A DNA stretch of 64,000 nt from Pyrobaculum neutrophilum V24Sta (GTDB taxonomy: Archaea; Thermoproteota; Thermoprotei; Thermoproteales; Thermoproteaceae). Position numbers and translations under genes: made by a program. The notes under the pieces were generated by a model, which worked only from the letters and a program-made list of their open reading frames with translations, did no database searches and was not told where the DNA came from. Of this stretch, positions 12,581 through 45,314 are shown in pieces. The stretch is taken from contig NC_010525.1 in assembly GCF_000019805.1 (NCBI RefSeq), positions 310,001 to 374,000 of the forward strand, written 5' to 3'. How positions within the stretch are numbered: the first letter of the stretch is position 1; each line of letters opens with the position of its first letter.

Positions 12581-13489
12581 TTAATGCACGAGAGCCAGAA
12601 CCGAGGCCAGTACTATTATGCGTGCCGCCAACGCGATAGAGAGCCCGATGGCTCCTCTGGCTAGCCCCACCCGCGGGCCAAATATGGCGACCCACTGGGG
12701 GATGTACACCCTTAGGTAGAGTAGCGGTAGCATGAAGACGCTTGCGAGCAGTAGCGCCGCCAGCGCCTCGACCTCTCCCACCACGCCGGTTTTCACCAGC
12801 TGGCCCACGGCCGCCATGCCCGCGGTGGGGTGAAGCACGTATATTCCAACGGCAGGTAGTAGCTGTGGAGAAATGCCCATCGCATAGGAGGAGAGAGGGG
12901 TTGCGAGATGTTGCAGAACCCCGTATCTCAGGAGAAGCTCCACCGTGGTGACGGTGGCGGCGAAAACCACGGCGGTTTTCACAAACCTCCTCAGCCCCCT
13001 TCTCAACGCCGCCTTGTAGTTCCTACCAGGCTTCCTCGCCATCTCCTCCACAAGGCCTGTCTCTCTCCGATTCAGCGCCAGTCTCCCGGCCGCCACAACT
13101 ACGGCGAAAGACAACGCTCCATTGAGCCACATCGCCGACATATACATGAGACCTAGCCTAGGGCCTAACAGCGGTATCACCACGGGCAGATACACCGTGA
13201 AGGTCTCGTAAAACGGCACCGCGGCGGCGTTTAACAAAGACGCGAGAAGCACCTCCCTATCGTTTAACACGCCCCTATCTCTTAGGCTTTGCAACATGGC
13301 GTTAGACGCGGCAGGCGACACAAACGCCGTGGCGAAGGTAACGCCGCAGACGTCGGGGAGGTTGGCCAACCTCGCCACGCGGCGGAGAAACGACAGCTTG
13401 TACAAAACGCCGTATTCCAGAAGCACCTCCGCCGCTAGAAAGCCCAACAACATAGCCAGGAGAACCCCCGCTACCTCCTGCACCACCAT
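12581..13489 (-). CDS. Gate-domain (nucleoside recognition-like) membrane protein, second copy
   Basis: 302 residues, mostly hydrophobic, about eight membrane segments. It belongs to the Gate/nucleoside-recognition fold (SpmA/SpmB, also the channel part of FeoB). Two repeats are visible: LPDVCGVTFATAFVSPAASNAML with NAAAVPFYETF in the first half, and ISPQLLPAVGIYVLHPTAGM in the second. It is the last gene of a six-gene minus-strand operon with a metal-chelate type ABC importer. The substrate is unknown. It overlaps the methyltransferase by 19 bases and is a distant paralog of the gene at 14226-15122. Confidence 0.7.
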   Translation of the reverse strand: MVVQEVAGVLLAMLLGFLAAEVLLEYGVLYKLSFLRRVARLANLPDVCGVTFATAFVSPAASNAMLQSLRDRGVLNDREVLLASLLNAAAVPFYETFTVYLPVVIPLLGPRLGLMYMSAMWLNGALSFAVVVAAGRLALNRRETGLVEEMARKPGRNYKAALRRGLRRFVKTAVVFAATVTTVELLLRYGVLQHLATPLSSYAMGISPQLLPAVGIYVLHPTAGMAAVGQLVKTGVVGEVEALAALLLASVFMLPLLYLRVYIPQWVAIFGPRVGLARGAIGLSIALAARIIVLASVLALVH

Positions 13490-14235
13490 ACCGCCGCCTC
13501 CTTCACCTTATACTTGAAGACCACACCGCCGTCCCCCCGCCTCCCTAAACGCGGCAACGCCTCCACGACCCTCTCCACCTCGACTCCAAGATCCTCAGCC
13601 GCTTCTTCGACGCTTGGGTACTCTCTAACCACGTCTCTCTCGAAGATTCTGACGTTGGCGTAGACCCCCCTCTGGAGGAGGAAGTTGTAGAAGGCGGTGA
13701 ACCAAGGGCGGTGGGGCCGCTCTACGCCCAACGACCTGTAGAGCTGGGCCCAGCCAGGCACGCCGACGTGTAGAACAACGCAGACGCATCTAGCCGCCTC
13801 CTCCAACTTCTCCACCGCCCCCCTGAGGTCCTCCACGAGAAGGGAGTGGGCGGCCAGAGCTAAGTCGTGGCGGCCGACCTCCTCAAGAGAGACCTCCTCC
13901 CACCTCTTCTCCACTACGTCGACTTTAACGCCCTCCTCCTCGGCGTATTTCCTCAGGTATCGGGCCATCTCCCTAGAGGGCTCCACGGCGACGACGCGGC
14001 TCACCCTCTTGGCGAGAGGCACGGCGTAGGCCCCCGCCCCAGCCCCAACCTCAAGCACGGAGCTCCCCCCGCCGAGCCCCAGCTCCCCGAGGAGCCAGTC
14101 TAAAAACCTCTCCACCTCGACCCTCCTCCTCTTCGCAGATCTGTAGAACCTGGGGGCAGCCCTATCCCAGAAATCCGGCGGGGTCCTAACCTCCCTCCGC
14201 CACGCCGCCCACACCTCAGCCCAGTCTATATCCAT
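13471..14235 (-). CDS. Class I SAM-dependent methyltransferase
   Basis: 254 residues. SAM-binding motif I is VLEVGAGAGAYAVPLA (60-75), with the acidic end of strand 2 at VVAVEPSREM. The rest is typical of small-molecule methyltransferases, with no DNA or rRNA target motif. It is sandwiched between two Gate-domain genes and overlaps both, so it is co-translated with a transporter. A role in modifying the imported ligand, such as a corrinoid or metal chelator, is an inference; it does not look like the CbiT or CbiL families. Confidence 0.8.
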   Translation of the reverse strand: MDIDWAEVWAAWRREVRTPPDFWDRAAPRFYRSAKRRRVEVERFLDWLLGELGLGGGSSVLEVGAGAGAYAVPLAKRVSRVVAVEPSREMARYLRKYAEEEGVKVDVVEKRWEEVSLEEVGRHDLALAAHSLLVEDLRGAVEKLEEAARCVCVVLHVGVPGWAQLYRSLGVERPHRPWFTAFYNFLLQRGVYANVRIFERDVVREYPSVEEAAEDLGVEVERVVEALPRLGRRGDGGVVFKYKVKEAAVWWCRR

Positions 14236-15122
14236 ACCAGGGCAAGGATGAGAGCTGTTCTCACAGAGGTGGAGATAGCCATCAGGAGGGGCCCATCTCT
14301 AGGGCCAAACACGCCTACGTAATACGGCAAGATAGCCCTCAGCGCTGTGACGAAGGAGAAGGCGGATCCCAACAACATGGCTTTGACAGCTCTCCACCCG
14401 TCCAACAGCCCCGCGTTGATCAACGCAGCTGCAGCGGCGGCGCCTGCGGCGTAGTTAACCATGGAAGCCACGGCGACCCCCAGCTCTTCTGCAGACAGGG
14501 GGAAGGCCGACATGGCGGATTTCACATAGCTATTTAACACGCCAAAGAGGCCGAGAGAGGCGGCGAGCTCCACAACTGCCAAAGCGGCGGCAGAGGTCGC
14601 GAGGATCTTAACAGCCCTCCTCAACGCCCTCTTTAACGCGTTAAGCCCCCCGCCTCCCCCCACTACGACGGCGGACACGCGGCCGCTCCCCGCGACTAAA
14701 AGCCTAGATAACAACGCGAAGAGGAGCGTTTGGGCTAAGCCAACGAGGAGGAAGCAGGCGAAGTAGAGAGCGCCCCAGAGCCCGAGGAGAGCTAGAAGAG
14801 GTGGAAGCATAGAGTCCCAGTGTCTCACGGCGGCTGGGAAGGCGTTCATAAGAGAGGCCAGATACATCTCCCTCCGGCTAAGCCTACCCTCCCTATGTAG
14901 CGTGACTAGAAGAGCGTTTGCGCTTCTTACGTCGAAAAACGCAGTGATAAACGCCGCCGCGGCCTCGGGGCCAAGCCCGCTGAGTTTTACAAAAGGCGCC
15001 GCGAGAGGCCTCAACTTGTTCAACACGCCCCTCTCCATTAGAAAAGCGGCGAGGAGAGAGCCCCCGATTACGCTAGGCGCGAGGAACAAGACCTCGCGTA
15101 GAAGAGCCGCCGGGTTAATCAT
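14226..15122 (-). CDS. Gate-domain (nucleoside recognition-like) membrane protein, first copy
   Basis: 298 residues, hydrophobic throughout. Repeats ITAFFDVRSANALLVTL and LASLMNAFPAAVRHWDSM in the first half, and ELGVAVASMVNYAAGAAA in the second, match the Gate fold. FFDVRSANA aligns with FVSPAASNA of the copy at 12581-13489, so the two are paralogs and may form a heterodimer. The gene starts inside the 3' end of the ABC ATPase gene, which places it firmly in the metal-chelate transporter operon. Confidence 0.7.
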   Translation of the reverse strand: MINPAALLREVLFLAPSVIGGSLLAAFLMERGVLNKLRPLAAPFVKLSGLGPEAAAAFITAFFDVRSANALLVTLHREGRLSRREMYLASLMNAFPAAVRHWDSMLPPLLALLGLWGALYFACFLLVGLAQTLLFALLSRLLVAGSGRVSAVVVGGGGGLNALKRALRRAVKILATSAAALAVVELAASLGLFGVLNSYVKSAMSAFPLSAEELGVAVASMVNYAAGAAAAAALINAGLLDGWRAVKAMLLGSAFSFVTALRAILPYYVGVFGPRDGPLLMAISTSVRTALILALVWI

Positions 15123-15876
15123 GGGGGAGCACCACCACCCTCCCGTCTACCTCAAGCACTTTAACGCTTACGCCGTAGACCTCCCCAATTACGTCGTCTT
15201 TAATTACATCCCGGGGAGCCCCCGCCGCCACCACCCTACCCTCTTTCACCACTATGATCTTGTCCGAATACGCCGCGGCGAGGTTGGGGTCGTGGAGAGT
15301 CATCAAGACGGCCACGCCGCTGGCTTTCGCCAGCCTCCTAACGGTGGAGAGAACCCTCAGCTGGTTTCTAAAATCTAGGTGGGCTGTGGGCTCGTCTAGG
15401 AGGAGGACCTGAGGCTCTTGTACAAGCGCCCTAGCTATGAGGACAAGCTGTAGCTGGCCCCCGCTCAGATGGGTGTAGGGCCTCTCGGCGAGGCGCTCTA
15501 TACCCAAAAGCCGTAGCTTCTCCAGCGCCTTCTCGTAGTGCTCCCTCCCCGGGCTCTGGAGGAGGCCAAGCCGCGGGGCAAAGCCGGTGACCACCACGTC
15601 GATCACCCTATAGGGGAAGGGCGGGTGGTGGCTTTGCGGCACATAGCCAGCGAGTTGAGACCTCCTCCTAAAGGGCAGGGAGTGGAAGTCCGCCCCATCA
15701 ACGTATACGCACCTCGCCCTCGGCTTCAACAACCCGTAGATAGCCTTCAAAATTGTGGTTTTGCCGCTGCCGTTTGGCCCCAGCAGAACCGCCACCTCGC
15801 CCTTCCCCACGGAAAAGGTCACGCCGCTGATTGTAAACTCGCCGTAGCTAAACTCAAGCCCTTTTACCTCAAGCAT
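15115..15876 (-). CDS. ABC transporter ATPase, iron/cobalamin (FecE/BtuD) type
   Basis: 253 residues. Walker A LLGPNGSGKTT, signature HLSGGQLQLVLIARAL, Walker B VLLLDEPTAHLD and the switch histidine (MTLHDPN) are all present, so it should be active. It is closest to ATPases for metal-chelate uptake (FecE, BtuD, FhuC). It overlaps the permease gene by 8 bases upstream and the Gate gene by 8 bases downstream. Cobalamin, heme and siderophore cannot be told apart from the sequence. Confidence 0.92.
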   Translation of the reverse strand: MLEVKGLEFSYGEFTISGVTFSVGKGEVAVLLGPNGSGKTTILKAIYGLLKPRARCVYVDGADFHSLPFRRRSQLAGYVPQSHHPPFPYRVIDVVVTGFAPRLGLLQSPGREHYEKALEKLRLLGIERLAERPYTHLSGGQLQLVLIARALVQEPQVLLLDEPTAHLDFRNQLRVLSTVRRLAKASGVAVLMTLHDPNLAAAYSDKIIVVKEGRVVAAGAPRDVIKDDVIGEVYGVSVKVLEVDGRVVVLPHD

Positions 15877-16909
15877 GCCACCTGCCGCCCGTCTTCCTCA
15901 GGAGGTAGATGAAGAAGGGCACCCCAAGCACCGTGGTTAAAATACCCACGGGGATTTCAAAAGTGGCTACAGTCCGCGCTAGGGTGTCCGCGGCGCCCAT
16001 AAAGGCGGCGCCCCCCGCGATAGTCAGCGGCACTAGACCTCTGTGGCTTGGCCCAAAGGCCATCCTCATTATGTGCGGCACCATGAGCCCAACCCAGCCG
16101 ATGATCCCGCTGTAAGCCACAGAAACCGCCGTGAGTAGAGTAGCCACGAGGACAAAAAGCGCCTTCAGCTTCTCCACATCTACGCCGAGGGTCTTAGCCT
16201 CTTCCCCAAAGCTAAGAACGTCGAGGCGCCACCTCAAGAGATACGCCAGAGCTCCCAGCGCTGAGATTACGGGAACGGCGACAACGACGGCGTCCCAGCC
16301 CACCCCCGAGAAGCTACCCATTAGCCAATACACAGCCGCCGCGAGTCTGTTATGCTCCATCAGAAACTTGAGGAGAGACGTCAACGCCGTGAAAAGCGCG
16401 TTGACGATAATGCCGGCTAAGACGAGAGAGACGGGGGTGACGGAGCCTCCAATCCTCGCCAGGCTGTAGGTCATGAAGACGGCCAACAAGGCAAAGACAA
16501 ACGCTATGGGAGTCACGCTGGCGACAGCCAAGAAGCCTATAGCCAACGTGGCCCCGAAGGCCGCCCCGGAGGAGATGCCCAAGATGTAGCTATCGACAAG
16601 CGGGTTTTTAAACATGGCTTGAAGAATCAAGCCGGAGAGAGCCAACGCCGCGCCCACCGCCATAGAGAAGACAACCCTCGGCATCCTAATTCCAACGATA
16701 ACAACCTCATAGGTCGTGGGGTAGTGCAGATTCACCGCAGGCGAAACGACGCCAAATGTAACCACGCTGACGGCGGTGGAGAAAAGAGAAGCCAACTTAG
16801 CCGACACCACCATAACCACGTCGTATATAGGTATGGGGTACGCGCCCACCGAGATACTCACAAGAAACACCGCCAGGGGTAGCCCGTAGACGAGATACCT
16901 CACCCACAT
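15869..16909 (-). CDS. ABC transporter permease, FecCD/BtuC family
   Basis: 346 residues with about ten membrane segments. FecCD family markers include IRMPRVVFSMAVGAALALSG, MFKNPLVDSYILGISSGAAFG and GIIGWVGLMVPHIMRMAFG. I place the start at the ATG of MWVRYL (16909), which has a GAGGGG ribosome site, rather than an upstream ATG at 16936 inside the preceding gene. It forms the channel for the tandem-domain binding protein encoded immediately upstream. Confidence 0.92.
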   Translation of the reverse strand: MWVRYLVYGLPLAVFLVSISVGAYPIPIYDVVMVVSAKLASLFSTAVSVVTFGVVSPAVNLHYPTTYEVVIVGIRMPRVVFSMAVGAALALSGLILQAMFKNPLVDSYILGISSGAAFGATLAIGFLAVASVTPIAFVFALLAVFMTYSLARIGGSVTPVSLVLAGIIVNALFTALTSLLKFLMEHNRLAAAVYWLMGSFSGVGWDAVVVAVPVISALGALAYLLRWRLDVLSFGEEAKTLGVDVEKLKALFVLVATLLTAVSVAYSGIIGWVGLMVPHIMRMAFGPSHRGLVPLTIAGGAAFMGAADTLARTVATFEIPVGILTTVLGVPFFIYLLRKTGGRWHA

Positions 16910-19071
16910 ATCAACCCCTCGCCCACGTATGTACACGACACGTTATAGAACCTCCTCAACAGCTCCGCATGTATAGGTCTCCAATCTGGATAATACTCTG
17001 GATATATGGCGCGGCCAAAGGCGTATATGGCGCTTACGAACCTAGGGCCGTAGATCTCGGGGAAGTTTAAGCTATATGCAGATAGGACAACCCCGTAGAC
17101 CCTCCCCTCTCTCACGGCCTTTATCGCCCTCCACCTCGGATCGCTCAGGATAGCTTTCACCGCTTGCGCAGTTCTGTTGTAGTCAGACCACGCCACGATC
17201 AAGACGTCGGTTTTGTTTCCAAATAGGGCGATGAGCTTCTCCAGGTCAAACTTGGGGTACTGCACCGTGAAGTTGTAGTCAAAAGCCACGTTGTGCCCTC
17301 CCACCAGCTCCACGGTCTCCGCGTAGGCAGACCCCCTGTAGGACACGGAGATAGGCCCCCTCTCCAACACGCCTGTGGGGTAAATCACGAGGACATTTCT
17401 CCGCTTCTCCGGCGGGATCCCCCTCGCGATTTCAAGAGCTTTTTTGTACTCCCTCTCTAGAAAGTCCGCAAGAGCCTCCGCCTTCTCGGTGACGTTAAAC
17501 ACACGGCCGAGCGCTCTGATGATCCTGATGTTTTCATAAGGCATCTTCGTCCCCGTCTTATTGACATCGGTGATGCCGAACGCCAAGACCTTATACCCAA
17601 GCTCCCGCGACTTCTCCAACACCTGTCTCTCGCCGGGCTCAAAGCCGCCTTTCCAGCGGCCCATGATAATTAAGTCGGGCCGTAGAGCAGCCACTGCCTC
17701 CCAGTTTATACCCGAGAAGGTTTCGCCCACTGCCGGAGCGCCCCTGACCTCCTTAGGTAAAAACGACGCCCTGGCCACAGAGGGGCTGATCCCCACGACC
17801 CTATCTACGACCCCCAATACATAAAGCGCCTCGGCCCAACCGCTGTATAACACGATAACTCTCCTAGGCGGCGACTCGAAAGTCACCTCCCTCCCCATGG
17901 AATCCATAACTGTAACAGGGTAGAGTTGAGCCACGTTACACCTAAGCCCGCCCTCTACGTGACAAGACATGTTGTAGAACCTCCTGAGCAACTCTACATG
18001 TAGAGGTTTCCAGTCCGGGTAGTACTGTGGGTAGATCAAATGGCCTAGCGCGTAGATGGCGGAGATAAACCTAGGCGAGTATTCGTAGGGGTAGCTGAAG
18101 TCGTAGTATGAAAAGTTCACCCCGTAGACCCTCCCCTCTCTCACGGCCTTTATCACCCTCCACCTCGGATCGCCCAAGATCCTCTTGATCGCCCTATCGA
18201 CGTATCTCCCCCCGTGCCAATCCCTCACTATTACGACATCTGTCTTGTTTCCAAATAGGGCGATGAGCTTCTCCAGATCCAGCTTGGGGGTCTGGCTCAG
18301 GTTGTAATCAAAAGCGACGTTGTGTGCGCCTACAAGCTCCACGAGCTCGCCGGAGGCGCTACCTCTCCCCGACACGTAGATATCGCCGCTTGTGGCGAGG
18401 GAGTAGGCCGAGATCACGAGCACGTTTAACCTCTTCTCCGGCGGGATCCTCATCGCGATATCTAGAGCCTCTCTATACCTCTCCTCAAGCCAGCTGGCCA
18501 GCTCCTCGGCTCTATCCCGTACGTTGAAGACCTTGCCGAGCACTCTGACTATCCTGATGTTTTCATACGGCCAGGAGCTGTTTACGCCGGGCGCCACATA
18601 TCCAAAGGCGAGGACTTTGTATCCCAGCTCCCGGGACTTCTCTAAGACCTGTTGTTCACCGGCGGCGAAAACCCCGCCCCAGTAGCCCATCACCACCAAA
18701 TCCGGCTTCAAGGCGGCGACCGCCTCCCAGTTTATCCCGGAGTAGGTATCTCCCACGACGGTTCTGTTCCTAAGCGAAGCCGGCAGAGAGACCACGTCGG
18801 CGACGGATTTCCCAATCCCCACAACCCTATTCCACACCCCCAACACGTAGAGAAACTCGGCGTGGGTCAACGCCACCACCCTCTCGGGAGGTTTGTCAAA
18901 AACTACCACGCGCCCCGCAGAATCCACCACAGAGACGGGGGAGGGCCCGGCGGCTCTAGGCGGAGCCGTGGCGTTGGAGACGCCGCCCCCCGTGGGGGGT
19001 TTTGCCAGATAGAGGGCGAAAACAGCTAGGATTACCGCCAGGAGAACCCCTATTACAACTCTTGTATTCAT
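16900..19071 (-). CDS. Metal-chelate ABC binding protein with two tandem BtuF/FecB domains
   Basis: 723 residues, about twice the usual 300-350. An N-terminal membrane anchor (about 4-24) is followed by two complete periplasmic-binding domains. Each has a PPERVVAL- or PPRRVIVL-type start, SGINWEAVAAL(K/R)PDL(V/I)(V/I)MG, GDPRWR or SDPRWR, IKAVREGRVYGV and an end near YYPDW(K/R)P. The copies are very alike even at the DNA level (see the 17092 and 18121 repeats), so the duplication is fairly recent. It heads the six-gene minus-strand operon. Substrate probably a corrinoid, heme or iron chelate. Confidence 0.9.
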   Translation of the reverse strand: MNTRVVIGVLLAVILAVFALYLAKPPTGGGVSNATAPPRAAGPSPVSVVDSAGRVVVFDKPPERVVALTHAEFLYVLGVWNRVVGIGKSVADVVSLPASLRNRTVVGDTYSGINWEAVAALKPDLVVMGYWGGVFAAGEQQVLEKSRELGYKVLAFGYVAPGVNSSWPYENIRIVRVLGKVFNVRDRAEELASWLEERYREALDIAMRIPPEKRLNVLVISAYSLATSGDIYVSGRGSASGELVELVGAHNVAFDYNLSQTPKLDLEKLIALFGNKTDVVIVRDWHGGRYVDRAIKRILGDPRWRVIKAVREGRVYGVNFSYYDFSYPYEYSPRFISAIYALGHLIYPQYYPDWKPLHVELLRRFYNMSCHVEGGLRCNVAQLYPVTVMDSMGREVTFESPPRRVIVLYSGWAEALYVLGVVDRVVGISPSVARASFLPKEVRGAPAVGETFSGINWEAVAALRPDLIIMGRWKGGFEPGERQVLEKSRELGYKVLAFGITDVNKTGTKMPYENIRIIRALGRVFNVTEKAEALADFLEREYKKALEIARGIPPEKRRNVLVIYPTGVLERGPISVSYRGSAYAETVELVGGHNVAFDYNFTVQYPKFDLEKLIALFGNKTDVLIVAWSDYNRTAQAVKAILSDPRWRAIKAVREGRVYGVVLSAYSLNFPEIYGPRFVSAIYAFGRAIYPEYYPDWRPIHAELLRRFYNVSCTYVGEGLICG
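17092..17144. repeat. Internal direct repeat, copy 1 (binding-protein domain 2)
   Basis: 53 bases matching 18121-18173 at 52 of 53 positions. The offset is 1029 bases, exactly 343 codons, so the repeat marks the in-frame domain duplication of the binding protein gene. Confidence 0.9.
18121..18173. repeat. Internal direct repeat, copy 2 (binding-protein domain 1)
   Basis: Partner of 17092-17144. Further near-identical stretches occur around 17211-17260 and 18243-18292 (the LFGNKTDV region). The similarity could allow loss or gain of a domain by recombination. Confidence 0.9.
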
Positions 19072-19082
19072 AAAATCCAGAA

Positions 19083-19092
19083 GTAATATTAC
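19083..19092. promoter_or_regulatory. Perfect palindrome GTAATATTAC between TATA box and start of the binding-protein operon
   Basis: The 10-base palindrome lies at -12 to -21 from the ATG at 19071 (minus strand), just downstream of the TTTAAA TATA element at 19096-19101. That position suits a repressor operator. Its half-site GTAATA recurs at 19160 and 45251, before other metal genes. Confidence 0.45.
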
Positions 19093-19138
19093 AGATTTAA
19101 AGTTTTAAGGCCGGAAGAAGCGCGGAGGATTTAGGCAT

Positions 19139-19166
19139 TAATACTTAAATAGAAGTAACGTAATAC
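19139..19166 (+). promoter_or_regulatory. Promoter of split cobN with TAATAC element at -32
   Basis: TAATAC (19139-19144) directly precedes the TATA-like TTAAAT and starts exactly 32 bases before the ATG at 19171. A GTAATAC half-site follows at 19160-19166. The same hexamer at the same distance is found before 28572, 42309 and 61952. Confidence 0.5.
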
Positions 19167-19170
19167 AGCT

Positions 19171-21561
19171 ATGCTCCGGCTGTCTTTTATCGTGGGCTAC
19201 GGCGGCTCTATGTTGCCGGTTTTAGCTAAGGTGGCGGAGGAGGAGGCGAAGAAGTTGGGTTTTGAATACCTCGTGACCTCCGACGCGGCCGCCTCTGCCC
19301 ACGCCGATTTTTTAAAGGAGAGCGACGCCGTGTTGATCTATACACACCAGCTTGCCCCAGAGGTGGAATCTGCCATAAGAAGGTCCAGGGCTAAGGTCGT
19401 GGTTTCTCTAAACCCCGAGTACCACCCAGACATCGTAAGAGGTAGGCCGGACCTCTGGATCGAGGCTAGGCGGTACTTCGTAACCGGGGGAGAGAAAAAC
19501 CTTCGAAACGTTGTGCGTCTCCTCCTTAGGGAGCTCGGCGTGGCTGTGGAGGTAGAGGACGTGGAGCCCATCCCCTGGGACGGCATCTACCACCCGAAAT
19601 ACGGCGTTTTCACAGACCTAGAGGAGTACATGAGGAGGTACGAGAAGAGGGGGGAGGAGACGGTGGGGATACTGTTCTACAGGACAAACTGGCTCTACGG
19701 CAACACAAAACACGTAGATAGGCTCATAGAGGAGTTCGAGAAAGAGGGGGTCAACGTCATCGCCGTCTTCACCTACGGCTTCCGCGACGACATATTGAAG
19801 GCGCCTTCCAAGGAGGAGTCGGCGGCGAGGTACTTCATACGCGGCGGCAGACCTGTTGTAGACGCGGTGGTGAACCTGACCTCCTTCTTCATCCTCGACA
19901 GAGGTAGGTGGACTCTGGATCCCAACAGGATGAGGGTGGCAGACGGCGTTGGTCTCCTGAAGATGCTCAACGTCCCCATCATTACGCCCGCCCAGTCCTC
20001 GCGCCAGACTGTGAGGGAGTGGCTAGACAGCCCCGAGGGAATCGACTATATGAGCCAGGTTTACTACGTCGTTATGCCGGAGGTGGACGGCGGGATCGAG
20101 CCCTTCTTCCTAGTCGGCACTAGGGTAAACAGAGATGGGGCTAAGGTGGCGGACGTCTACGAACCCCACGTGTCCTACCTCGTCAGAAGGGTGAAGAGGT
20201 GGATAAGGCTCTCCAGGAAGTCGCCTAGCGAGAGGAAGATCGCCATAGTGCTCATAAATCCGCCGTGTAAAGGCCTTGAGGCCAACGTGGGGGTTGGCCT
20301 AGGGCTGGACGTGCCCGAGTCTGTGGTGAGGTTGTTAAAGAGGCTGAGGGAATTAGGCTATATCGTAGGGGGGGAGATCCCGGAGAGCGGGCAGGCCTTG
20401 ATAAAGCTCATCCTCTCGAGGAAGGCAATCAGCGAGTTTAGGTGGACCTCCGTCGAGACTATAGTCAAGTCGGGCGGCGCCGTGGGCTTCGTCGACTTAG
20501 ACACATACATGCGGTGGTTTAACGAGCTTCCCCCCGACGTGAGAGAGAAGATGGTGAAAGACTGGGGCCGCCCAGCCGACGTCTTAGGCGGGAGGTTCAA
20601 CAAGCTGTTTGTGGGGATGGTCTACCAAGGCAAGTTCGTAATACCCGGCGTGGTCTTCGGCAACGTGTTGATAATGCCTCAGCCTAAGTTCGGCTGCGCA
20701 GGTCCTCGGTGCGATGGGAGAGTCTGTAGAATCCTCCACGACCCAACCATCTCCCCGCCGCATCAGTGGCTAGCCGCGTACCGCTGGGCCACCAGAGTCT
20801 TCGGCGCAGACGTGTTAATACACTTCGGCACACACGGCGCTTTGGAGTTCCGCCCAGGCAAAGGCGTAGGCCTAGACGTCTCAAGCTGGCCCGAGATAAG
20901 CGTAGACGACGTCCCCCACCTCTACGTCTACGCCTTCACCAACCCCATGGAGGGCGTGATTGCAAAGAGGAGGAGCTACGCCGTGATTATAGACCACCTC
21001 TACCCGCCGATGGACACGGCAGAGGTGTTTGAACAGCTGGAGAAGTTGGTCAACGACTACTGGAGAGCAAAGCAGAACGGCAACTACGAGCAGGCCAAGA
21101 TCCTGTACGCCAAGATTAGGGAGGAGGCGGAGAAGGCCCACGTCAAGCCCAGGGTGAAAACCGACGACCCAGACGACTACGTGGAGGAGGTCCACAACTA
21201 CCTACGGATGGTGAGCGACACCGAGATAAACCTGGGGCTCCACATCTTCGGCCACCCCACAAGCGACGTGGAGAAACTCGCCAGATATGGCACCACCATA
21301 TTCCTCAAGGACACGGCGAGGTACCCCTCGGTCGTGAGGGCGTTGGCTGAGTACCTCGGCTTCGACTACGACGAGCTTAGGAGGAGGCCCGGAGAGGTGA
21401 ACAAACTCGGTATGACAAACGACGAGCTTCTCAAGAAGTTGAAGGAGATGGCGTATGCCGTTTCGAAGAGGCTAGTGGAGAGCGGATACACAAGCGCGGG
21501 GCTAACAGAAGAGGCGGTGGTGAAGGCGGTGGAGGAGGTGAGGACGGCCTTTGGGCTATGA
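19171..21561 (+). CDS. cobN: CobN-like chelatase large subunit, N-terminal half (split gene)
   Basis: 796 residues covering the N-terminal two-thirds of CobN/ChlH. The CobN core signature is visible: PPHQWLAAYRW and HFGTHGALEFRPGKGVGLD, the region of the proposed metal/tetrapyrrole-binding histidines. ATP-driven CobN-type chelatases insert Co (or Mg in ChlH) into tetrapyrroles with a ChlI/ChlD-type motor. The frame ends with an ATGA overlap into the gene for the C-terminal half, so the two parts are probably coupled in translation and assemble into one functional subunit. It is the first gene of a four-gene operon. Confidence 0.88.
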   Translation: MLRLSFIVGYGGSMLPVLAKVAEEEAKKLGFEYLVTSDAAASAHADFLKESDAVLIYTHQLAPEVESAIRRSRAKVVVSLNPEYHPDIVRGRPDLWIEARRYFVTGGEKNLRNVVRLLLRELGVAVEVEDVEPIPWDGIYHPKYGVFTDLEEYMRRYEKRGEETVGILFYRTNWLYGNTKHVDRLIEEFEKEGVNVIAVFTYGFRDDILKAPSKEESAARYFIRGGRPVVDAVVNLTSFFILDRGRWTLDPNRMRVADGVGLLKMLNVPIITPAQSSRQTVREWLDSPEGIDYMSQVYYVVMPEVDGGIEPFFLVGTRVNRDGAKVADVYEPHVSYLVRRVKRWIRLSRKSPSERKIAIVLINPPCKGLEANVGVGLGLDVPESVVRLLKRLRELGYIVGGEIPESGQALIKLILSRKAISEFRWTSVETIVKSGGAVGFVDLDTYMRWFNELPPDVREKMVKDWGRPADVLGGRFNKLFVGMVYQGKFVIPGVVFGNVLIMPQPKFGCAGPRCDGRVCRILHDPTISPPHQWLAAYRWATRVFGADVLIHFGTHGALEFRPGKGVGLDVSSWPEISVDDVPHLYVYAFTNPMEGVIAKRRSYAVIIDHLYPPMDTAEVFEQLEKLVNDYWRAKQNGNYEQAKILYAKIREEAEKAHVKPRVKTDDPDDYVEEVHNYLRMVSDTEINLGLHIFGHPTSDVEKLARYGTTIFLKDTARYPSVVRALAEYLGFDYDELRRRPGEVNKLGMTNDELLKKLKEMAYAVSKRLVESGYTSAGLTEEAVVKAVEEVRTAFGL

Positions 21562-23069
21562 CCGAGGCCAAGGCGATCTCTAGACAGGCGCAGAGGCTCG
21601 CCGAGGCGTTTAAAAACGTGCTTAAGGCTGTGGAGCTCGTTAGAGAAAGCGGCGAGGCGGAGTACGGAGGTTTTCTAAACGGGCTGGAGGGCGGCTTCGT
21701 GGAGCCGGGGCCCGCCGGGTCGTTGACCCGGGGGAAGCTCGAGATCCTCCCCACCGGCCGCAACTTCTTCGCCGTCGACCCAACCCAGATGCCCACCCCC
21801 GCGGCTTGGGAAATAGGCGTACAGTCCGCCAAGAAGCTCCTCGAGTACTACCTCAAGGAGGAGGGGAGGTATCCCGAGTCCGTGGGGGAGGTCCTCTGGT
21901 CGAAAGACGCGTATAGGGCAGACGGAGAGCAGTTGGCCCAGATCCTCTACCTAATTGGGGTAAGGCCTGTGTGGGACTCCGGCGGGAGCGTGAGGGGGGT
22001 CGAGCCCATCCCTCTGGAGGAGCTGGGGAGGCCGAGGATAGACGTGTTGGTTAGAATAAGCGGCATCGTGAGAGACACCCTGCCCAACTACGTCCACCTA
22101 ATAGACGAGGCGGTGGCTAAGGTCGTGGCGCTGGACGAGCCGCTTGAGGTGAACTACGTGAAGAAGCACTACCTGGAGAACCTGCTGAAGCTCAAGGCGG
22201 AGGGGGTAGAGGGCGACGTGGAGGAGATGGCCAAGGCGAGGGTTTTCGCCGAGCCTCCAGGCGCATACGGGGCGGGGGTAAACTACGCTGTGGAGGCCTC
22301 GGCTTGGAGGACAGACGAGGATTTGGCCAAGGTCTGGATCCAGTGGTCGAGCTATATGTACACCAGGAGGAGCTACGGGAAGCCCGCGCCCGAGGCCCTG
22401 ATGTTGAACCTCCGCTATGTCGACGTGGTAAATAGAAACCACGAAAGCGACGAGTTCGACATATTCGGCTGCTGTTGCTACTACTCCTACCACGGCGGTT
22501 TCTACAACGCCGCCAAGGCGGTAAGCGGGAAAAACGTGAAGATCGTGACCGTCGACACCCGCGACGTCTCTAACGTAGAGGTGAGAGACATGAGGGAGGA
22601 GGTGGAGCGCGTGGTGAGAGCTAAGCTCCTCAACCCCGTCTGGATCTCCGAGATGAAGAAACACGGCTACAGAGGCGCCAACGAGTTCCAGAGGAAGATA
22701 CTCCACCTCTACGGCTGGTCGGCCACGGCCAAAGTCGTCGAGAAGTGGGTTTTCGACGAAATCGCCAAAACCTACATTCTAGACCCAGAGATGAGGAAGT
22801 GGTTCCTTGAGAACAACCCATGGGCGGCTGAGGAGGTCGCGAGGAGGCTCATAGAGGCGGCCCAGAGAGGCCTGTGGAAAGCCGACAAGGACTTGCTGGA
22901 CAAGCTGAGGGAGGCATACGGCGAGATAGAGGGCGTTCTTGAGGAGGAGGTGGGGGAGGGGGAGGTGCAGGGAGGCTCCATAGAGATATACACGGCGGAG
23001 GACGTAGACGTGTGGAAAAACCAGGAGACGGTCAAGAAGATAGAAAAACTGTGGATAAAGCTGAGGTGA
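21558..23069 (+). CDS. cobN: CobN-like chelatase large subunit, C-terminal half (split gene)
   Basis: 503 residues matching the C-terminal third of CobN. Markers are [55 protein letters not shown] and the ESDEFD block. Where CobN proteins usually have an acidic stretch before YYxYHGG, this one has three cysteines in a row ([11 protein letters not shown]), which is unusual. A helical segment precedes the conserved region, so the break lies in a natural linker. ATGA overlap with the N-terminal half; the TGATG overlap with the ChlID gene fixes that start at 23069. Confidence 0.88.
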
Positions 23070-24982
23070 TGGAGGAGGCGAGGGAACGCCGGGTTGTCTA
23101 CCCCTTCGCCGCGATTGTAGGCCAAGAAAAGGCCAAGCTGGCTCTGCTGGCGGTCTCGGTGAACCCCGCCATTGGCGGGGTCCTCCTCGCCGGAGACAAG
23201 GGGACGGGCAAATCGACTATGGTGAGGGCGCTCGCCGACCTCCTCCCCGAGATAGAGGTGGTAGAGGGGTGCCCCTTCGGTTGCAACCCACACAACCCGG
23301 CGGAGATGTGCGACGAGTGCTACCTGAAGTGGAAAAGAGGCGAGATAAAGGTGGCGAAGAGGAAGATGCGCGTTATAGACCTCCCCCTAAGCATCACAGT
23401 GGATAGGCTGGTGGGGACGCTCGACATAAAGAGGGCGCTCGCCGAGGGGATAAGAGCGCTTCAGCCGGGCCTCCTCGCCGAGGCCAACCGAAACATACTG
23501 TATATAGACGAGGTAAACCTGCTAGACGACTACATAATAGACGTCTTGTTAGACGCTGCGGCGATGGGCTGGAACATCGTGGAGAGAGAGGGCATATCTG
23601 TGAAACACCCAGCCCGCTTCATATTAATCGGTAGTATGAACCCAGAGGAGGGCGAGCTTAGGCCCCAGCTGTTAGACAGATTCGGCCTATATGTGAAGGT
23701 GGAGGCCTCCATGAACCCGGAGGAGAGGATAGAGATAATCAGGAGGGTCGAGGAGTTCAACAGAGACCCAATAGCCTTCTACAGAAAGTGGGAGCCCGAG
23801 CAGAACAGGCTTAGGGAGGCTATATCTAGAGCTAGACAGATAGTCAACGACGTCCAAATAGACGAAGACCTCATGAAGTTCATAGTCAAGACTATAACAG
23901 ACCTAAAGATCAGAAGCCACAGGGCAGAGATTACGGTTGTTAGAACAGCCAAGTCCATAGCCGCCCTCGACGGCCGCCTCAAGGTCAACCTAGACGACGT
24001 GAAAAAGGCCATGGAGCTCGCCCTACCCCACCGCCTCAGGGCAACACCCTTCGAGCCGCCTCCGCCGCCTCCCGCAAGCTCTCCGCCATCTCCCCAGCAG
24101 AACGACGGCGGAGGCGACAGAGGGCCGCAGGGAGGCGGAGGGGGACAGGGAGGGGGAGAGGCGGGCGGCGGGAGGGGAGGCGGGGAGAGGCAGTTCGGCG
24201 AGGAGAAGCCCCCCTACGAGCCCCGGGAGACGCCCGTCCGCCTTAGGGGGGAGGAGGAGGGGGGCGGCGGGAGGCGGGCTAGGAGAGCCTACGAGCTTAA
24301 AATCGGCGGGAGCCACGGCGTAGTTACAACCTACGCGATCCCAAGGGGGGAGGCGGCGGATATACACATCACCGCGACGTTGACAGCCGCAGCGCTCAGA
24401 AGGCTAGGCGCCGGCCTCCCCCTCGCCGTAGATAATGAGGATCTTAGAATAAACGTAAGAAGAGCCAGAGTGCCCGTCCTCCGCGTCGTCCTGCTTGACT
24501 CAAGTGGGAGCATGGCCGCCTTGAGGAGGATAGCGGTGGCGAAGGGGCTTGTGAGAAAGCTAGCGGAGTCCTCCTACAGGGGGAGGGAGTACATCTCGTT
24601 GATCGTCTTCAGAGGAGGCGGAGCCCAGGTGGTGGTGCCCCCAGTGAGGAAATACGAGGAGGTCCTCGCCGCCTTATCCGCCGTACCCACCGGCGGCAGA
24701 ACGCCGTTGCCCCACGCCCTGGAGACCCTCTATAGGATAGCCAAAAGCTTCAGGGCTAAATATAGAGACGCCAAGGTGGTGGGGGTCTTGATAACAGACG
24801 GCAAAGCCAACGTCCCACTGTATAGAAACGTAACAGAGGACCTAGAGAGGCTCTCCCACCTGTTAAAGAAGGCGGGTGTGGAGCTGGAGATATACGCCAC
24901 CAGAGGCAGAGGCTTCGACCCAGCCCCCACCTACATAGACCTAATAGCGAGCATCACCTCGGCCAAGGTAGTAGAGGTGTGA
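23069..24982 (+). CDS. ChlI-ChlD fusion: AAA+ motor plus von Willebrand A domain of a metal chelatase
   Basis: 637 residues from the ATG that overlaps the previous stop; an ATG 57 bases upstream is also open but lies inside cobN. The AAA+ half has Walker [10 protein letters not shown], the ChlI cysteine insertion (CPFGCNP, CDEC) and Walker [12 protein letters not shown] Pro/Gly/Arg-rich acidic linker follows. The C-terminal vWA domain has the MIDAS motif LLDSSGSM. It is the ATP-driven motor for CobN. It lies between two different CobN genes and could serve both. Confidence 0.9.
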
Positions 24983-27900
24983 AGATAGTAGTTATCTCCA
25001 CCAAGCCCTCCCTTCGTACGCTTTTTGACGTGGCGAAGGAAGTAGAGGCAGAGGCCGGCGTATCCATAGAGCTACAGACCTACTATATACACAGCTCTGT
25101 GGACTATGCCGCTGTTGAAAACGCCGACGTTATCCTAATAGACGTGAGAGGGGATGCGCCTAGGGAGCTTATAAATGCCGTGGAGAAAAGCAGAGCTAAA
25201 GTAGTCATCCCATTGGTGGGCGGCTCGCCTGGAACACTTGCGCTTTTAAGACTTGGAGGCTTCAGCGGAGTTGAAATAGCGAAGAGAGTGCCGGAGCAAG
25301 ACTTCGACACAGACCGCGTAGACTTCTCAAAGATCTCCAAGGTGTTATCCGCCGTAGAAACTGCGGGCAGGGTGTTGCCAGTGGGGCCGTTGAGACATCT
25401 AAGAAATTGGATCTGGGCCACGAAATACTGGGCCTACTGGGGTAGGGAAAACTTAGCTAATTTGTTCAAGCTTATTCTCGCCGAGTATTTCGGCGCAGGG
25501 GTAAAATACGGCGAGCCTAAGCTAGTGGGAGAATTCGCAGTGTATACCCCTGGCATAGGATTTACATATGAGCCACCAGAGACGAAAGGGCCTGTAGTGT
25601 TGATATTTACCTACGCAGGTATGCACTTCGATGAAACTCTGCCCGTAGCCCTCAAACTAAAGGAAGAGTTGGAGAAACTCGGCGTAAATGCCTTTATTGC
25701 GACAGGAGGAGTCACAGATGGGCTACTTAAACAACTGGAAGCGTTGAGGAAGTACACCCTCGTAGGGGGGAGGTCTGTAGACGCCGTCATAAACCTCCAG
25801 TGGTTTGTCATAAACGGCGGGCCCTACGGCGGGTCTCCGGAGCCCACCCGCGAGCTGTTTAAAGAAAGGGGGTCTCTCCTCTTCAACGGCTTGGTCGCCT
25901 ATACGCGGAGGATTTCGCAGTGGGAGAAAGATCCCAGAGGTCTCTCTCCCGTGGAAGTTGTAGGGGGCGTCGCCCTCCCGGAGATAGATGGGGCAATAGA
26001 GCCTATTATCTCGGCGGGTTTAGACGACAGCATATATGCAGAAATGGTAGTCTTAGAGGAGAGAGTGAAGAAAAAGGCTAGGAGAGTGGCTAACTGGATA
26101 AAGCTCAGGCAGAAGCCCCCCTCAGAGAGGAGGGTGGCGATTGTGATATACAACTACCCACCGGGGGAGCATAATGTGGGCAATGCCGCATATTTAGACA
26201 CTTTAGCTAGCCTTGCTGTAATTCTAAAGGCGTTGAGAGAAGCCGGCTATAGGACCCGGGCGTTAGATAAAGAGGAGCTTCGACGTCTTATAGCAGAGAG
26301 GTTTTTAGTCAACTCGCCGCAGTGGGGAAGCCATGGCGATGTGCCAAAGTTGCCGGTGTCTGAATACTTAAGGTGGTTTAACACACTGGCCAACAGAGAC
26401 GAGGTTATAAAAACGTGGGGCGAGCCCCCAGGCGGTATAAACGTAGAGGGGGACAGCTTTTTAATCCCCGGCGTAGTACTCGACAACGTCTTCATCGGCG
26501 TGCAACCCCCCAGAGGCTTCCACGAAGATCCATCTAAACTGTATCACTCAAAGGACATACCGCCTCACCACCAGTACTTGGCCTTCTACTACTGGATTAA
26601 AGAGGTCTTTAAGGCAGACGTAATAATACATGTAGGTACACACGGCACGCTTGAGCTTATGCCAGGGAAAGAGGTGGGGTTATCGGATAGGTGTTGGCCT
26701 GATATTCTCATCGGCGACACCCCCCACATATACATCTACCATGTGACAAACCCGTCTGAGATGACTATCGCCAAGAGGAGGAGCTACGCCTATATTATAA
26801 CACACGGCACTCCGCCGTTTACACAAGCAGATCTCTACGGCGAATATGTGGAGCTTGAGGAGCTCCTAGAGGAGGCCGAGAAGGGGGGAGAAGACGTGAG
26901 GAGGTTAATAGAGGAGAAGTGTAGAAAACTAAATATCCCCTGCGGCGACTTGGAGAGATTACACGACTACCTAATGGAGATGAAACGGGCGGTGATCCCG
27001 CGGGGCCTCCACGTCTTTGGCAGTAGGTGGAGTGTAGAAGACGTAGTGAACTACATAGCCTTTGTCCTTAGGAGAGAGGGGGATGTCCCATCGCTACATA
27101 GGCTAATTCTAGAGGAGAGGGGGGTCAACTACGACGGAGTGGAGAAGGCGGGAGGGGGGAGGTTGCTTGTAGAGGCGGAGGAGGAGGCGAGAAGGATGAT
27201 TAAAGAAGCTCTCTCGGGGGGAGACCCGGCTAAGTATTTCAAAAAGAGGAGGGGAGAGGCCGAGGAGGTGTTTAGATATGTACGTGATTTAGCCAAGAGA
27301 ATTCTAGAGTCTGACGAAGTGTCCTCTTTACTAAAGGCCTTAGACGGGAGATATGTAGAGCCTAGAGTCGCCGGAGAGCCGTTGAGAACGCCAGAGGTTT
27401 TCCCCACAGGCTCCCACGGCTACGCCTTCGACCCCAGGCTTATACCTACGAAAGCCGCGTATATACGCGGGATAAACCTCGCCGAGGAGTTGGTAAAGAG
27501 GTATAGGGAGAAGTACGGACGTTACCCAGAGAGCGTCGCTGTCGTCCTATGGGGCTTTGAAACTGCGCAGACCAGAGGCGAGACGGTAGGCCAAATCTTA
27601 CAGCTCTTAGGCGTGAGACTTGTGAGAAAACACGGACCTTGGGCTCCCGAGCTTGAGCCTATTCCTCTGGAGGAGCTCGGGAGGCCGAGGATAGACGTGG
27701 TTGTAACAATCTGCGGTTTCTTCCGCGACATGTTTCCCAACCTCATCTCTCTCATAGATAGAGCGGTGAAGCTAGTTGCCAGCTTAGATGAACCGCTTGA
27801 GATGAACTACGTGAGAAAACACTACCTTGAAATAGGCCGCATCACTAGGATATTTGGCCCTAAGCCGGGGACATACGGCACCCGTCTCCCCGAGTTCATA

Positions 27901-28542
27901 GAGAGCTCTAGTTGGAAAAACGAGGGGGAGCTCGTCGAGGTGTACGTGGGAGACATGATGTATGGATACGGCGATGATATCCACGGCGAAGCTATGAGAG
28001 AGCTTTTCGTACAGCTCCTTAAGAAGGTAGAGGTGGTGAGCCAAGTGAGAAGCGCTACGGAGTACGACATAGCCGACCTAGACCACTACTACGAATTTCT
28101 CGGCGGGCTTAAAAAAGCCGTGGAGACTCTAGCCGGAAGGAGGGTGGAGGCCTATTGGGTAGACACCACTGGAGAAAAGATGAGAGTTAGGACGGTAGAA
28201 GAGGCGGTAGACTTCGCCCTAAGGACAAGATTACTAAACCCCAAGTGGGCTGAGGAAATGCTTAAACACGGCTACGACGGGGCGCGGGAGATCGCCAAGA
28301 GGGTGGAATATGTGCTAGGGCATGCCGCGTTAACAGGCACGGTGGATAGATGGTTTTGGCGTCAAATAGCTGAGATGTATGTAAAAAATGTCGAGATGAG
28401 AGAACGAATCAAAACAGTAAACCCATGGGCGCTTTATGAAATTATAAAACGGCTAGAGGAAGCCCACAGAAGAGGCTACTGGGAAGGCGACGAAGAAATT
28501 AAGAAAATTGCAGAAGAGCTAGAGGGCATATTAGAGGAGTAA
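24979..28542 (+). CDS. cobN: Second, intact CobN-like chelatase large subunit
   Basis: 1187 residues, full CobN length, starting with GTG in a GTGA overlap with the ChlID gene. Core motifs: [47 protein letters not shown] and [16 protein letters not shown]. At the conserved PTGRN/PTPAAW element it reads [19 protein letters not shown], so it differs from the split copy and from typical CobN there. The gene looks more A+T-rich than its neighbours. It may use a different metal or tetrapyrrole, or work in removal rather than insertion of metal. Confidence 0.9.
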
Positions 28543-28558
28543 TACTTAAAACGTATTA
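28540..28558 (+). promoter_or_regulatory. Inverted repeat TAATAC-N7-GTATTA overlapping the promoter of the orphan binding protein
   Basis: TAATAC (28540-28545) and GTATTA (28553-28558) are perfect reverse complements separated by TTAAAAC, which includes the TATA-like TTAAAA. TAATAC begins exactly 32 bases before the ATG at 28572. A repressor bound here would cover the TATA box. The left arm overlaps the stop codon of the preceding cobN. Confidence 0.5.
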
Positions 28559-28571
28559 TTATCATAGTCGT

Positions 28572-30620
28572 ATGAAATGGAAAATAATTTCCCTATTGGT
28601 GGTAATACTGGCGGCTATTGCCGCAGTATACCTCCTTTTGCCAAAGGGGCCGTCCCCCGCTCAGACGGCGCCTACGGCGGCTGTCTCGCCTACGGCTTCT
28701 CCCACAGCAGTCGCTACGCAACCGCCTGCTCAGACCCCGGCGGTCTCCCGGCAGATCGTCGTCGTTGATTTCCGAGGTAAGAGGATTGTTCTTCCTAAGC
28801 CTCCCGAGAGGATCGTGGTGCTCAACTCCTACTGGGCAGAGGTGTTGGTGGCGTTGGGGGCTGGGGATAAGATCGTCGGCATCGGGAGATACGTAGACGC
28901 CGACGAGTATCTGCCGCCGGAGGTGAGGAAGAAGCCGGTGGTTGGGGATCTATTCGGCGGGGTTAACGTGGAGGCGGTGGTGGCTCTCAAGCCTGACGTG
29001 GTGGTGACAGACTACGGCTATGGAAAAGCAGACGAGGTGATAAAGAGACTTGAGGAGGCGGGCGTCCCGGTCGTGGCGTTGTTTATGCGGGGGACTCCAG
29101 ACGAGTTGAGGGCTGTGGAGGTGTTGGGCAACCTCACGGGGGCTGTGGATAAGGCGAGGGAGCTGGAGGCCTTTATGGCCAAGAGGTTTGAGGAGCTGAG
29201 GGCCGGGGCGGCGAAGATAAAGGAGAGGAAGAGGGCTGTGTTGATCTTCGGCAGTAGCATACTGGCCGGCGGCCCGCTGTCTTTAGCCGCCAACTCGTCC
29301 TTCGGCATGGCGTTGGTTGAGGCCGGCGCTGTAAACATGGCGTTGGAGCAGTTCCCAAACCAGGCCTGGCCTAAGATAGACATGGAAACGTTGATAAGGT
29401 GGGACCCCGACGTGGTTTTAATAGCGGCGTCTGCGGAAGACGCCGGGAGGATATTCGACAAGATCAGATCAGACGAGAGGTGGCGCGTCTTAAAGGCGTA
29501 TAAAAACGGCGAGATATACCTAGTCCCCTGGGGGTCTAAGATAGGGGATATATTCAACTGGGGGCCCCGGGACGTAGTCGGCAGGGAGTACATCGCGGAG
29601 GTGCTCTATCCCGACGTCTACGCCTTTGACTGGCGGGGAGATCTAGAGCGCCTAGGAGATATGTACGGCGTGTCTATCCCGCCGCAGACCTACGCCGTGT
29701 ACAACATAAACTGGAAGGAGGTGGTAGACCTGGCGGGGAACGTGGTTAAGATCCCCAGCAGGGTGGAGAGGTTTGCCACTTTTGTCGCATATCAACTCCC
29801 CATCGCCTTCAACGTCACCTCTAGGCTCGTCGCCGTGGGGAGAGACGCTGTCCAAGGCGTCTTCGCCCCTCTGATGAAGGCGGCTTTCCCCGCCGTGGTA
29901 AATCTGCCGACGCCTGGAGATCGCTTCAAGGTAAACGTCGAAGCTCTCGTCCAGCTGAAGCCGCAGGTGGTGTTTAACTGGGCGGTAAACCCCGACGACG
30001 TAAGAACAATGCAGAGGGCTAACCTAACCCTGGTACAGGTGGTGGTTAACAACTTCACAGACGCCGAGAGGCTCGTCTGGCTATACGGCGTGGTCTTCGA
30101 CAGATTGCCCAGGGCTAGACAGATCGTCAACGACATGGAGGACATAGTGAAGTTTGTCGCCAACAGAACCGCGTCGGTGAGAGAAAAGGCGAGGGTCCTA
30201 TACCTCTGGGTAGACCCGCTGACGGTGGCGGGAGGCGCCTCCCTCTTTAGCCAAAACATAGAGCTGGCGGGCGGGGTAAACGTAGCCGCGGCCGACTACC
30301 CCACCATGAACACCGTGAAGGTGGACCCCGAGCGGATACTTAAGTGGAACCCAGACGTGATAATCATCGCCTGGCAGGCGAGATACAACGAGTCTGCCGT
30401 CTTGAACAACCCGGTATACCGCGGGGTAAACGCCGTGAAAAACGGCAGAGTATACAAAAAACCCATCCTCTCAGAGATGACCCCGGACGCCGCCCTCTCG
30501 GTGTTGTGGACAGCCACAAAGCTCTACCCAGACCTCTTCAGAGACGTAAACTTCACCAAGGTAGCCGACTACTACTACAGGAGGTGGTACGGCGTATCCT
30601 ACACACAGGTCTGGGGGTAA
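28572..30620 (+). CDS. Orphan metal-chelate binding protein with two tandem BtuF/FecB domains
   Basis: 682 residues. Membrane anchor (about 4-23), Pro/Thr/Ala-rich linker (about 26-60), then two binding domains: the first starts at KPPERIVVLNSYWAEVLVAL and the second at VVDLAGNVVKIPSRVERFATF. Each domain has a (V/A)(V/L)KP(D/Q)VV strand and ends with a KNGxxY element. It has the same double architecture as the 723-residue protein but is diverged from it. No permease or ATPase follows. It probably feeds the FecCD/BtuCD systems encoded at 15-17 kb or 43-45 kb. Confidence 0.88.
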   Translation: MKWKIISLLVVILAAIAAVYLLLPKGPSPAQTAPTAAVSPTASPTAVATQPPAQTPAVSRQIVVVDFRGKRIVLPKPPERIVVLNSYWAEVLVALGAGDKIVGIGRYVDADEYLPPEVRKKPVVGDLFGGVNVEAVVALKPDVVVTDYGYGKADEVIKRLEEAGVPVVALFMRGTPDELRAVEVLGNLTGAVDKARELEAFMAKRFEELRAGAAKIKERKRAVLIFGSSILAGGPLSLAANSSFGMALVEAGAVNMALEQFPNQAWPKIDMETLIRWDPDVVLIAASAEDAGRIFDKIRSDERWRVLKAYKNGEIYLVPWGSKIGDIFNWGPRDVVGREYIAEVLYPDVYAFDWRGDLERLGDMYGVSIPPQTYAVYNINWKEVVDLAGNVVKIPSRVERFATFVAYQLPIAFNVTSRLVAVGRDAVQGVFAPLMKAAFPAVVNLPTPGDRFKVNVEALVQLKPQVVFNWAVNPDDVRTMQRANLTLVQVVVNNFTDAERLVWLYGVVFDRLPRARQIVNDMEDIVKFVANRTASVREKARVLYLWVDPLTVAGGASLFSQNIELAGGVNVAAADYPTMNTVKVDPERILKWNPDVIIIAWQARYNESAVLNNPVYRGVNAVKNGRVYKKPILSEMTPDAALSVLWTATKLYPDLFRDVNFTKVADYYYRRWYGVSYTQVWG

Positions 30621-45242: not shown

Positions 45243-45250
45243 CATATACC

Positions 45251-45279
45251 GTAATACATAATTAAGATGTATTTATTAC
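45251..45279 (+). promoter_or_regulatory. GTAATAC ... GTATTTATTAC inverted half-sites upstream of cbiM
   Basis: GTAATA (45251-45256) and TATTAC (45274-45279) are perfect inverted arms 17 bases apart; inside them TAATAC faces GTATTT. The pair lies upstream of the cbiM TATA element (GTATTTATA, about 45287-45295) and uses the half-site seen before the other metal genes. Spaced inverted half-sites are what NikR-type regulators use, but the match to any known archaeal operator is not established. Confidence 0.45.
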
Positions 45280-45314
45280 AATGAAAGTATTTATAGGTGC
45301 GAAATCACCCTCTT

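Follow-up and report, generated by a model that had tools for sequence, protein, structure and literature searches.

In the closed genome of Pyrobaculum neutrophilum V24Sta (1,769,823 bases), eleven genes at positions 12581–30620 of the window analysed here (the whole 64,000-nucleotide stretch from 310,001 to 374,000 of contig NC_010525.1) join a FecCD-type importer to two class I chelatases and a ChlID motor. We tentatively read this locus, with a confidence a little short of even, as an import-and-metal-exchange cassette for a metallotetrapyrrole other than a corrinoid, most likely heme or another metalloporphyrin-type ring. The reading is built on which genes are present, on their conserved linkage, on the separation of the locus from corrin synthesis, and on the residue types of the chelatases with the differing neighbours of these types. 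Genes were identified by translation and family profile searches (Pfam, NCBIfam), and all of those listed in an earlier, sequence-only reading of this DNA were recovered. That reading had proposed the acquisition and metal exchange of tetrapyrroles or corrinoids; the linkage of importer, chelatases and motor proved to be conserved, but a corrinoid as the substrate was not borne out. The protein families themselves are known; in a search of open-access papers, neither the archaeal cassette nor the pairing of its two chelatase types, the cysteine-lined site of one of them or the archaeal importer linkage was found to have been described before. Below, G000 denotes the genome of the window and G004 its sister species, and other G and L labels denote other genomes and loci compared.

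The plus-strand operon had been described as two CobN-type chelatases around one ChlID. The second chelatase is indeed full length (P0010, 24979–28542; PF02514, 1104 bits), but the first is split into two open reading frames (ORFs), an N-part (P0007, 19171–21561; PF02514, 583 bits; CobN profile 2–664) and a C-part (P0008, 21558–23069; PF02514, 604 bits; CobN profile 676–1088). ChlID (23012–24982, plus strand), an AAA motor with a von Willebrand (VWA) domain, scored 658 bits against TIGR02442, under the cut-off of 779. In the structure of HmuS, the heme dechelatase of Bacteroidota, the cleft metal is held by His-538 (HFGTHG) and His-1209 (LSLDHxxEFMGG), the H538A substitution abolishes dechelation, and loop I, with Phe-502 and His-506, shuts over the ring (PMC12583661). 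Archaeal chelatases were aligned to these positions and typed by their residues at His-1209, which gave 19 sequences with xDD as in CobN (D-type), 18 with LDH as in HmuS (H-type), 25 entries with CC(C) (C-type) and four with DSC; the C-type entries include one mis-paired row (L051_17756, an N-part with the wrong C-part) that is to be disregarded. The family cleft residues, the THG histidine and NPxE, are retained, the former in all archaeal sequences compared. The DSC-axial chelatases (L092, L093, L096, L097) lie beside ChlID in genomes of another Thermoproteota family and form a further, uncharacterised type.

A tree computed with the axial motif columns removed, and resting on two fragments of ~115 residues, separated the types: CobN fell within the D group and ChlH close to the H group, and a long branch between the groups led to HmuS. 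The neighbours also differ by type. CbiZ, a corrinoid-salvage amidohydrolase, is encoded within 8 kb of 14 of the 19 D-type chelatases and of 1 of the 43 H- and C-type chelatases (1/18 and 0/25, respectively; Fisher p = 5e-9, the loci not being independent). The H group of the tree encloses two D-type sequences, L094 and L095, and the D-type thus comprises two separate lineages, with CbiZ beside the main D group and also beside L094/L095. These two (from G090 and G120) belong to the H clade by NCBIfam score as well, have IDD at the axial position and lie beside CbiZ, BtuFCD-like genes and Gate; they represent an apparent switch to a corrinoid substrate.

In the split C-type enzyme, the sole cysteines of P0008 form a CCC triplet (residues 305–307) that aligns with L-D-H1209 of HmuS, so that C307 takes the position of His-1209. 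P0007 contributes C366 and a CX4CX4C motif (C509, C514, C519); C519 and H523 align gap-free with Phe-502 and His-506 of the HmuS gating loop. Columns 366, 509, 514 and 519 are Cys in 24/24 C-type sequences and hold a single Cys among the other types, at 514 of an H-type sequence; two sequences have Ser or Gly in place of the third Cys of the triplet. From this alignment, thiols probably surround the metal site. Scored separately, not as one chain, the two parts reached 329 and 455 against TIGR02257 (cut-off 822). As far as found in the open-access literature, the C-type is a previously undescribed variant. A sequencing error as the origin of the split is ruled out by its recurrence in other genomes, by both gene orders and by fused forms: the pair is also split in G004, G007 and G009, the latter two with the order reversed, and fused or split C-type chelatases occur in Archaeoglobales and other Thermoproteota. 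The split is therefore old.

The full-length H-type enzyme, P0010, carries an LDHxxEFxGG-type motif (residues 1034–1043) and HVGTHG (551–556). The comparison with HmuS made in the sequence-only reading thereby gained a residue-level basis for P0010, but not for P0008, which is without LDHxxEFxGG. The closest PDB relatives of P0010 are ChlH (607 bits), CobN (538) and HmuS (400). It passes the TIGR02025 BchH profile (886 vs 829), which is non-specific in that a D-type archaeal control passes too, and remains under the TIGR02257 CobN cut-off (681 vs 822), where the same kind of control scores 1038. The H-type enzyme may work like HmuS, although it is itself no HmuS.

Conserved linkage of importer to chelatase and motor, on which the earlier proposal depended, was found in G004 and in Archaeoglobaceae, Hadesarchaea and other Thermoproteota. 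G004 holds all eleven genes, with a DNA identity of 97–98% across the block vs ~93% in the flanks. When the C-part of the split enzyme was used as the query against GTDB genomes, the same enzyme was found in Archaeoglobaceae, Hadesarchaea, Alkanophagales and others, and sets of importer, chelatase and ChlID recur in the first two groups and in other Thermoproteota; Archaeoglobus UBA234 (L055) has the order SBPx2-FecCD-ABC-CobN(C)-CobN(H)-ChlID, where SBPx2 is a substrate-binding protein (SBP) with two domains and ABC is the ATP-binding cassette protein. FecCD genes are scarce, at 1–4 per Thermoproteaceae genome, and their adjacency to chelatase genes is therefore more than chance; the cassette's own FecCD copy was found only in G000 and G004 among the Thermoproteaceae searched. 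At G007, G009, L051, L080, L098 and L102, the FecCD importer is swapped for an energy-coupling factor (ECF)-type transporter and a secreted beta-propeller protein. FecCD is encoded within 8 kb of 13 of the 25 C-type entries, an ECF transporter within 8 kb of 6 and Gate of 10, and a Gate protein often follows ChlID (L056, L088, L098, L101, L103, L115, L118, L120). C-type and H-type chelatases are also found without each other.

Several loci add observations of their own. Candidate surface receptors are WD40-like beta-propeller proteins (L029:18034-19755, L032:7605-9326, L080:5934-7823) that have a hydrophobic segment at the N terminus and adjoin an ECF-type transporter and a C-type chelatase. 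At L098:14306-15846, an ABC-3 (zinc/manganese-type) permease and ATPase adjoin a C-type cassette with Gate, a possible hint at the metal handled. A Desulfobacca metagenome-assembled genome (L059) encodes, beside ChlID and FecCD/ABC genes, a bacterial relative of the C-type in which CTD occupies the axial position.

The cassette is also separate from corrin synthesis. As had been stated for the window, no cbi or cob ring-synthesis gene occurs among the proteins annotated around the cassette, and the cbi cluster of the genome lies ~50 kb upstream, at ~253–263 kb, encoding a CbiX-CbiC fusion, CbiG, CbiH, CbiD, CbiL, CbiF, CobT and CbiS. Because CbiX is present in this cluster, cobalt insertion in the corrin pathway is provided for by the genome's own enzyme. 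CbiE (G000:C1:255911-256449; L023:9846-10450) is represented there by two overlapping ORFs matching profile positions 1–104 and 106–206, which may reflect a frameshift, a sequencing error or decay, and, if real, the split may impair the B12 pathway. Across Thermoproteaceae, the presence of chelatases does not follow that of corrin-ring genes: CobN-family genes are found in 4 of 19 genomes (G000, G004, G007, G009) and CbiD in 9, with chelatases but no CbiD in G004 and G009 and the reverse in seven genomes. A role of these CobN proteins in inserting cobalt for a local cobalamin pathway is thus disfavoured, both by CbiX-CbiC and by this decoupling.

The same data bear on corrinoid salvage, in which incomplete or metal-poor corrinoids would be imported and cobalt (re)inserted by CobN-ChlID, as proposed for haloarchaeal cobN-chlID (PMC8305020). 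A CobN-family enzyme and a BtuCD-like importer are present in the cassette, D-type archaeal CobN loci bear BtuFCD and CbiZ, and G004 salvages corrinoids, since it retains the salvage genes CbiS, CobT and CobD without CbiD. We nevertheless regard salvage as unlikely here: the window chelatases are of the types with CbiZ beside no C-type and only one H-type enzyme, the seven CbiD-bearing Thermoproteaceae without these chelatases all have a CbiZ-domain protein, and the FecCD linked to cbi genes in relatives belongs to a different system. The latter system, present in most of the Thermoproteaceae (56–60% to the cbi-linked copies in G001/G002, ~30% to the cassette FecCD), is likely the corrinoid importer and a better candidate for that role than the cassette.

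As previously described, the importer operon (minus strand) and the chelatase operon (plus strand) lie back-to-back, diverging from a 99-bp spacer (19072–19170, no strand). This putative divergent promoter region contains a candidate palindrome, GTAATATTAC, at 19083–19092, which is retained in G004, and a TATA-like element near 19140–19150. In both operons the genes overlap or lie end to end, and adjacent genes of the minus-strand operon share 8 to 37 bases; from the spacer outward the latter encode tandem-domain substrate-binding protein 1 (16900–19071), with an N-terminal anchor and two Peripla_BP_2 stretches, the FecCD/BtuC-type permease (15869–16936; PF01032, 284 bits), the importer ABC ATPase (15115–15876; ABC_tran, 101 bits), GateA (P0003, 14226–15122), a class I S-adenosylmethionine-dependent methyltransferase (13471–14235; Methyltransf_25, 44 bits) and GateB (12581–13489). 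Tandem-domain substrate-binding protein 2 (28572–30620, plus strand; two Peripla_BP_2 stretches, 199 bits), 28% identical to protein 1, closes the plus-strand operon. Of the two Gate proteins named in the sequence-only reading, GateA is a membrane protein of the Pfam Gate (nucleoside recognition) family (PF07670, 33 bits, above the cut-off), while GateB, a membrane protein with hydrophobic segments, matches no Pfam family and can be identified solely from its homology to GateA (34%). The AlphaFold2 (AF2) model of GateA (pLDDT 82.6) gave a weak match to the CNT-transporter fold (best TMq 0.55, no E-value <0.001), and the fold adds nothing beyond this to the identity of the Gate proteins. In G124 (L119), SBP and FecCD genes flank a homologue of the methyltransferase (35%). 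Elsewhere in the window, at 42309–47448, a second SBP-FecCD-ABC system is followed by CbiM-type ECF transport genes; because its homologues in G009 adjoin hydrogenase-maturation-like genes (HypF, HypD-like), nickel uptake is suggested for this system.

In the function that we propose for the cassette, the substrate, the metal, the direction of exchange and the roles of the Gate proteins and the methyltransferase are what we infer. The surface-anchored tandem binding proteins would catch the ring, and FecCD and the ATPase would carry it into the cytoplasm, where the two class I chelatases would use one ChlID motor in common. The H-type enzyme would hold the ring metal between H555 (of THG) and H1036 and most likely remove it, as HmuS does from heme. 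The C-type enzyme would offer cysteines instead and may act on a soft metal, which it would either extract or insert, and the Gate proteins and methyltransferase probably move or tag the product, be it the metal ion or the ring. It is possible, though we hold it with more doubt than the function of the cassette as such, that the C-type represents a novel group among the class I chelatases, with six or seven cysteines (C366, CX4CX4C and CC(C)) lining its cleft for thiolate or iron-sulfur chemistry, and that with a dedicated importer and Gate transporter it would constitute an archaeal pathway, widespread yet undescribed, by which the metal of environmental tetrapyrroles is recovered or swapped. 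In Methanosarcina barkeri, CobN-like proteins vary with the iron and sulfur source (PMC10846266), and heme import for iron would fit both these proteins and HmuS; Pyrobaculum itself, however, appears to make its own heme (PMC3004389).

Several points weigh against metal removal from an imported heme-like ring. ChlID drives insertion in the systems characterised so far, HmuS functions although its operon, unlike the cassette, encodes no ChlID motor, and P0010 is nearest to the Mg-chelatase ChlH, a metal inserter that also has His at the axial position. Heme meets no obvious need, as each of the 19 Thermoproteaceae apparently has the means to make it (AhbC/D-like, HemC and SUMT-like genes, with AhbD below the curated cut-off), and heme auxotrophy as the reason for the cassette is accordingly unsupported. 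The AF2 fold of binding protein 1 resembles, by Foldseek, siderophore (iron-chelate), molybdate and heme binders alike, and the substrate could not be deduced from it. Furthermore, Gate partners mostly adjoin C-type, not H-type, enzymes, and CbiZ is found near one H-type locus, L087.

Alternatively, the cassette could make a new metallotetrapyrrole cofactor, one chelatase stripping the imported ring, the other inserting another metal and the methyltransferase modifying the product, as BchM follows ChlH. One motor common to two chelatases with different metal-site residues, the proximity of the H-type enzyme to ChlH and the linkage of the methyltransferase in G000, G004 and G124 are consistent with this. 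A two-step exchange is not obligatory, however, because C-type and H-type enzymes also occur singly. The match of the methyltransferase to BchM is weak (25 bits), and no user enzyme was identified; we place this explanation just behind corrinoid salvage among the unlikely ones. The least probable in our estimation is metal acquisition from non-tetrapyrrole chelates, siderophore-like or a thiol metallophore, for which the chelatases would have been recruited. Siderophore and molybdate binders head the fold matches of the binding proteins, the C-type site is Cys-rich, and FeoB was absent from all Thermoproteaceae searched, which is uninformative as to whether the cassette replaces FeoB. Nevertheless, the family-wide cleft residues (THG His, NPxE) are kept, and no characterised class I chelatase is known to act on anything but tetrapyrroles.

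The proposed metallotetrapyrrole cassette points to a likely way in which tetrapyrroles or metals are scavenged in hot, anoxic settings, and genes of this kind are probably misnamed where they are automatically labelled "cobaltochelatase" or "magnesium chelatase". The Cys, His and Asp residue types, each with its own gene neighbourhood, provide a rule testable on a few purified proteins. A 2025 study of HmuS stated that the archaeal use of many HmuS/CobN/ChlH homologues is unclear, and treats the archaeal homologues as unassigned (PMC12583661).

Among known systems, the aerobic cobaltochelatase CobN(ST) belongs to the same Pfam family (PF02514), and ChlID stands in for CobST in some organisms, but CobN has an axial Asp-Asp where the window enzymes have Cys-Cys-Cys or Asp-His, and the cbi cluster of the genome is of the anaerobic type with CbiX. 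The magnesium chelatase ChlH/BchH, with an axial His and an I/D motor, is the closest solved relative of P0010; its motif is VSHYFDSD, whereas the LDHxxEFxGG of P0010 is HmuS-like, and no (bacterio)chlorophyll pathway is expected in Pyrobaculum. The corrinoid importer BtuFCD with CbiZ shares the SBP-FecCD-ATPase architecture and lies beside CobN-ChlID in D-type loci, but the cassette has tandem-domain SBPs, no CbiZ, and additional Gate and methyltransferase genes. HmuS/BtuS, encoded in the hmu operon, is of the same class I family, shares LDHxxEFxGG and the THG His with the H-type enzyme, and is likewise linked to uptake genes. HmuS is, however, membrane-anchored and periplasmic and has a Met-rich insertion, whereas P0007, P0008 and P0010 are without any hydrophobic segment and have at most 3 Met per 40 residues; the cassette differs from hmuYRSTUV in gene content and, in addition to its motor, combines archaeal ABC/ECF import with a further enzyme, of the Cys-type. 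Because the Met-rich insertion, the membrane anchor and the hmu operon are all missing, the cassette is not an HmuS.

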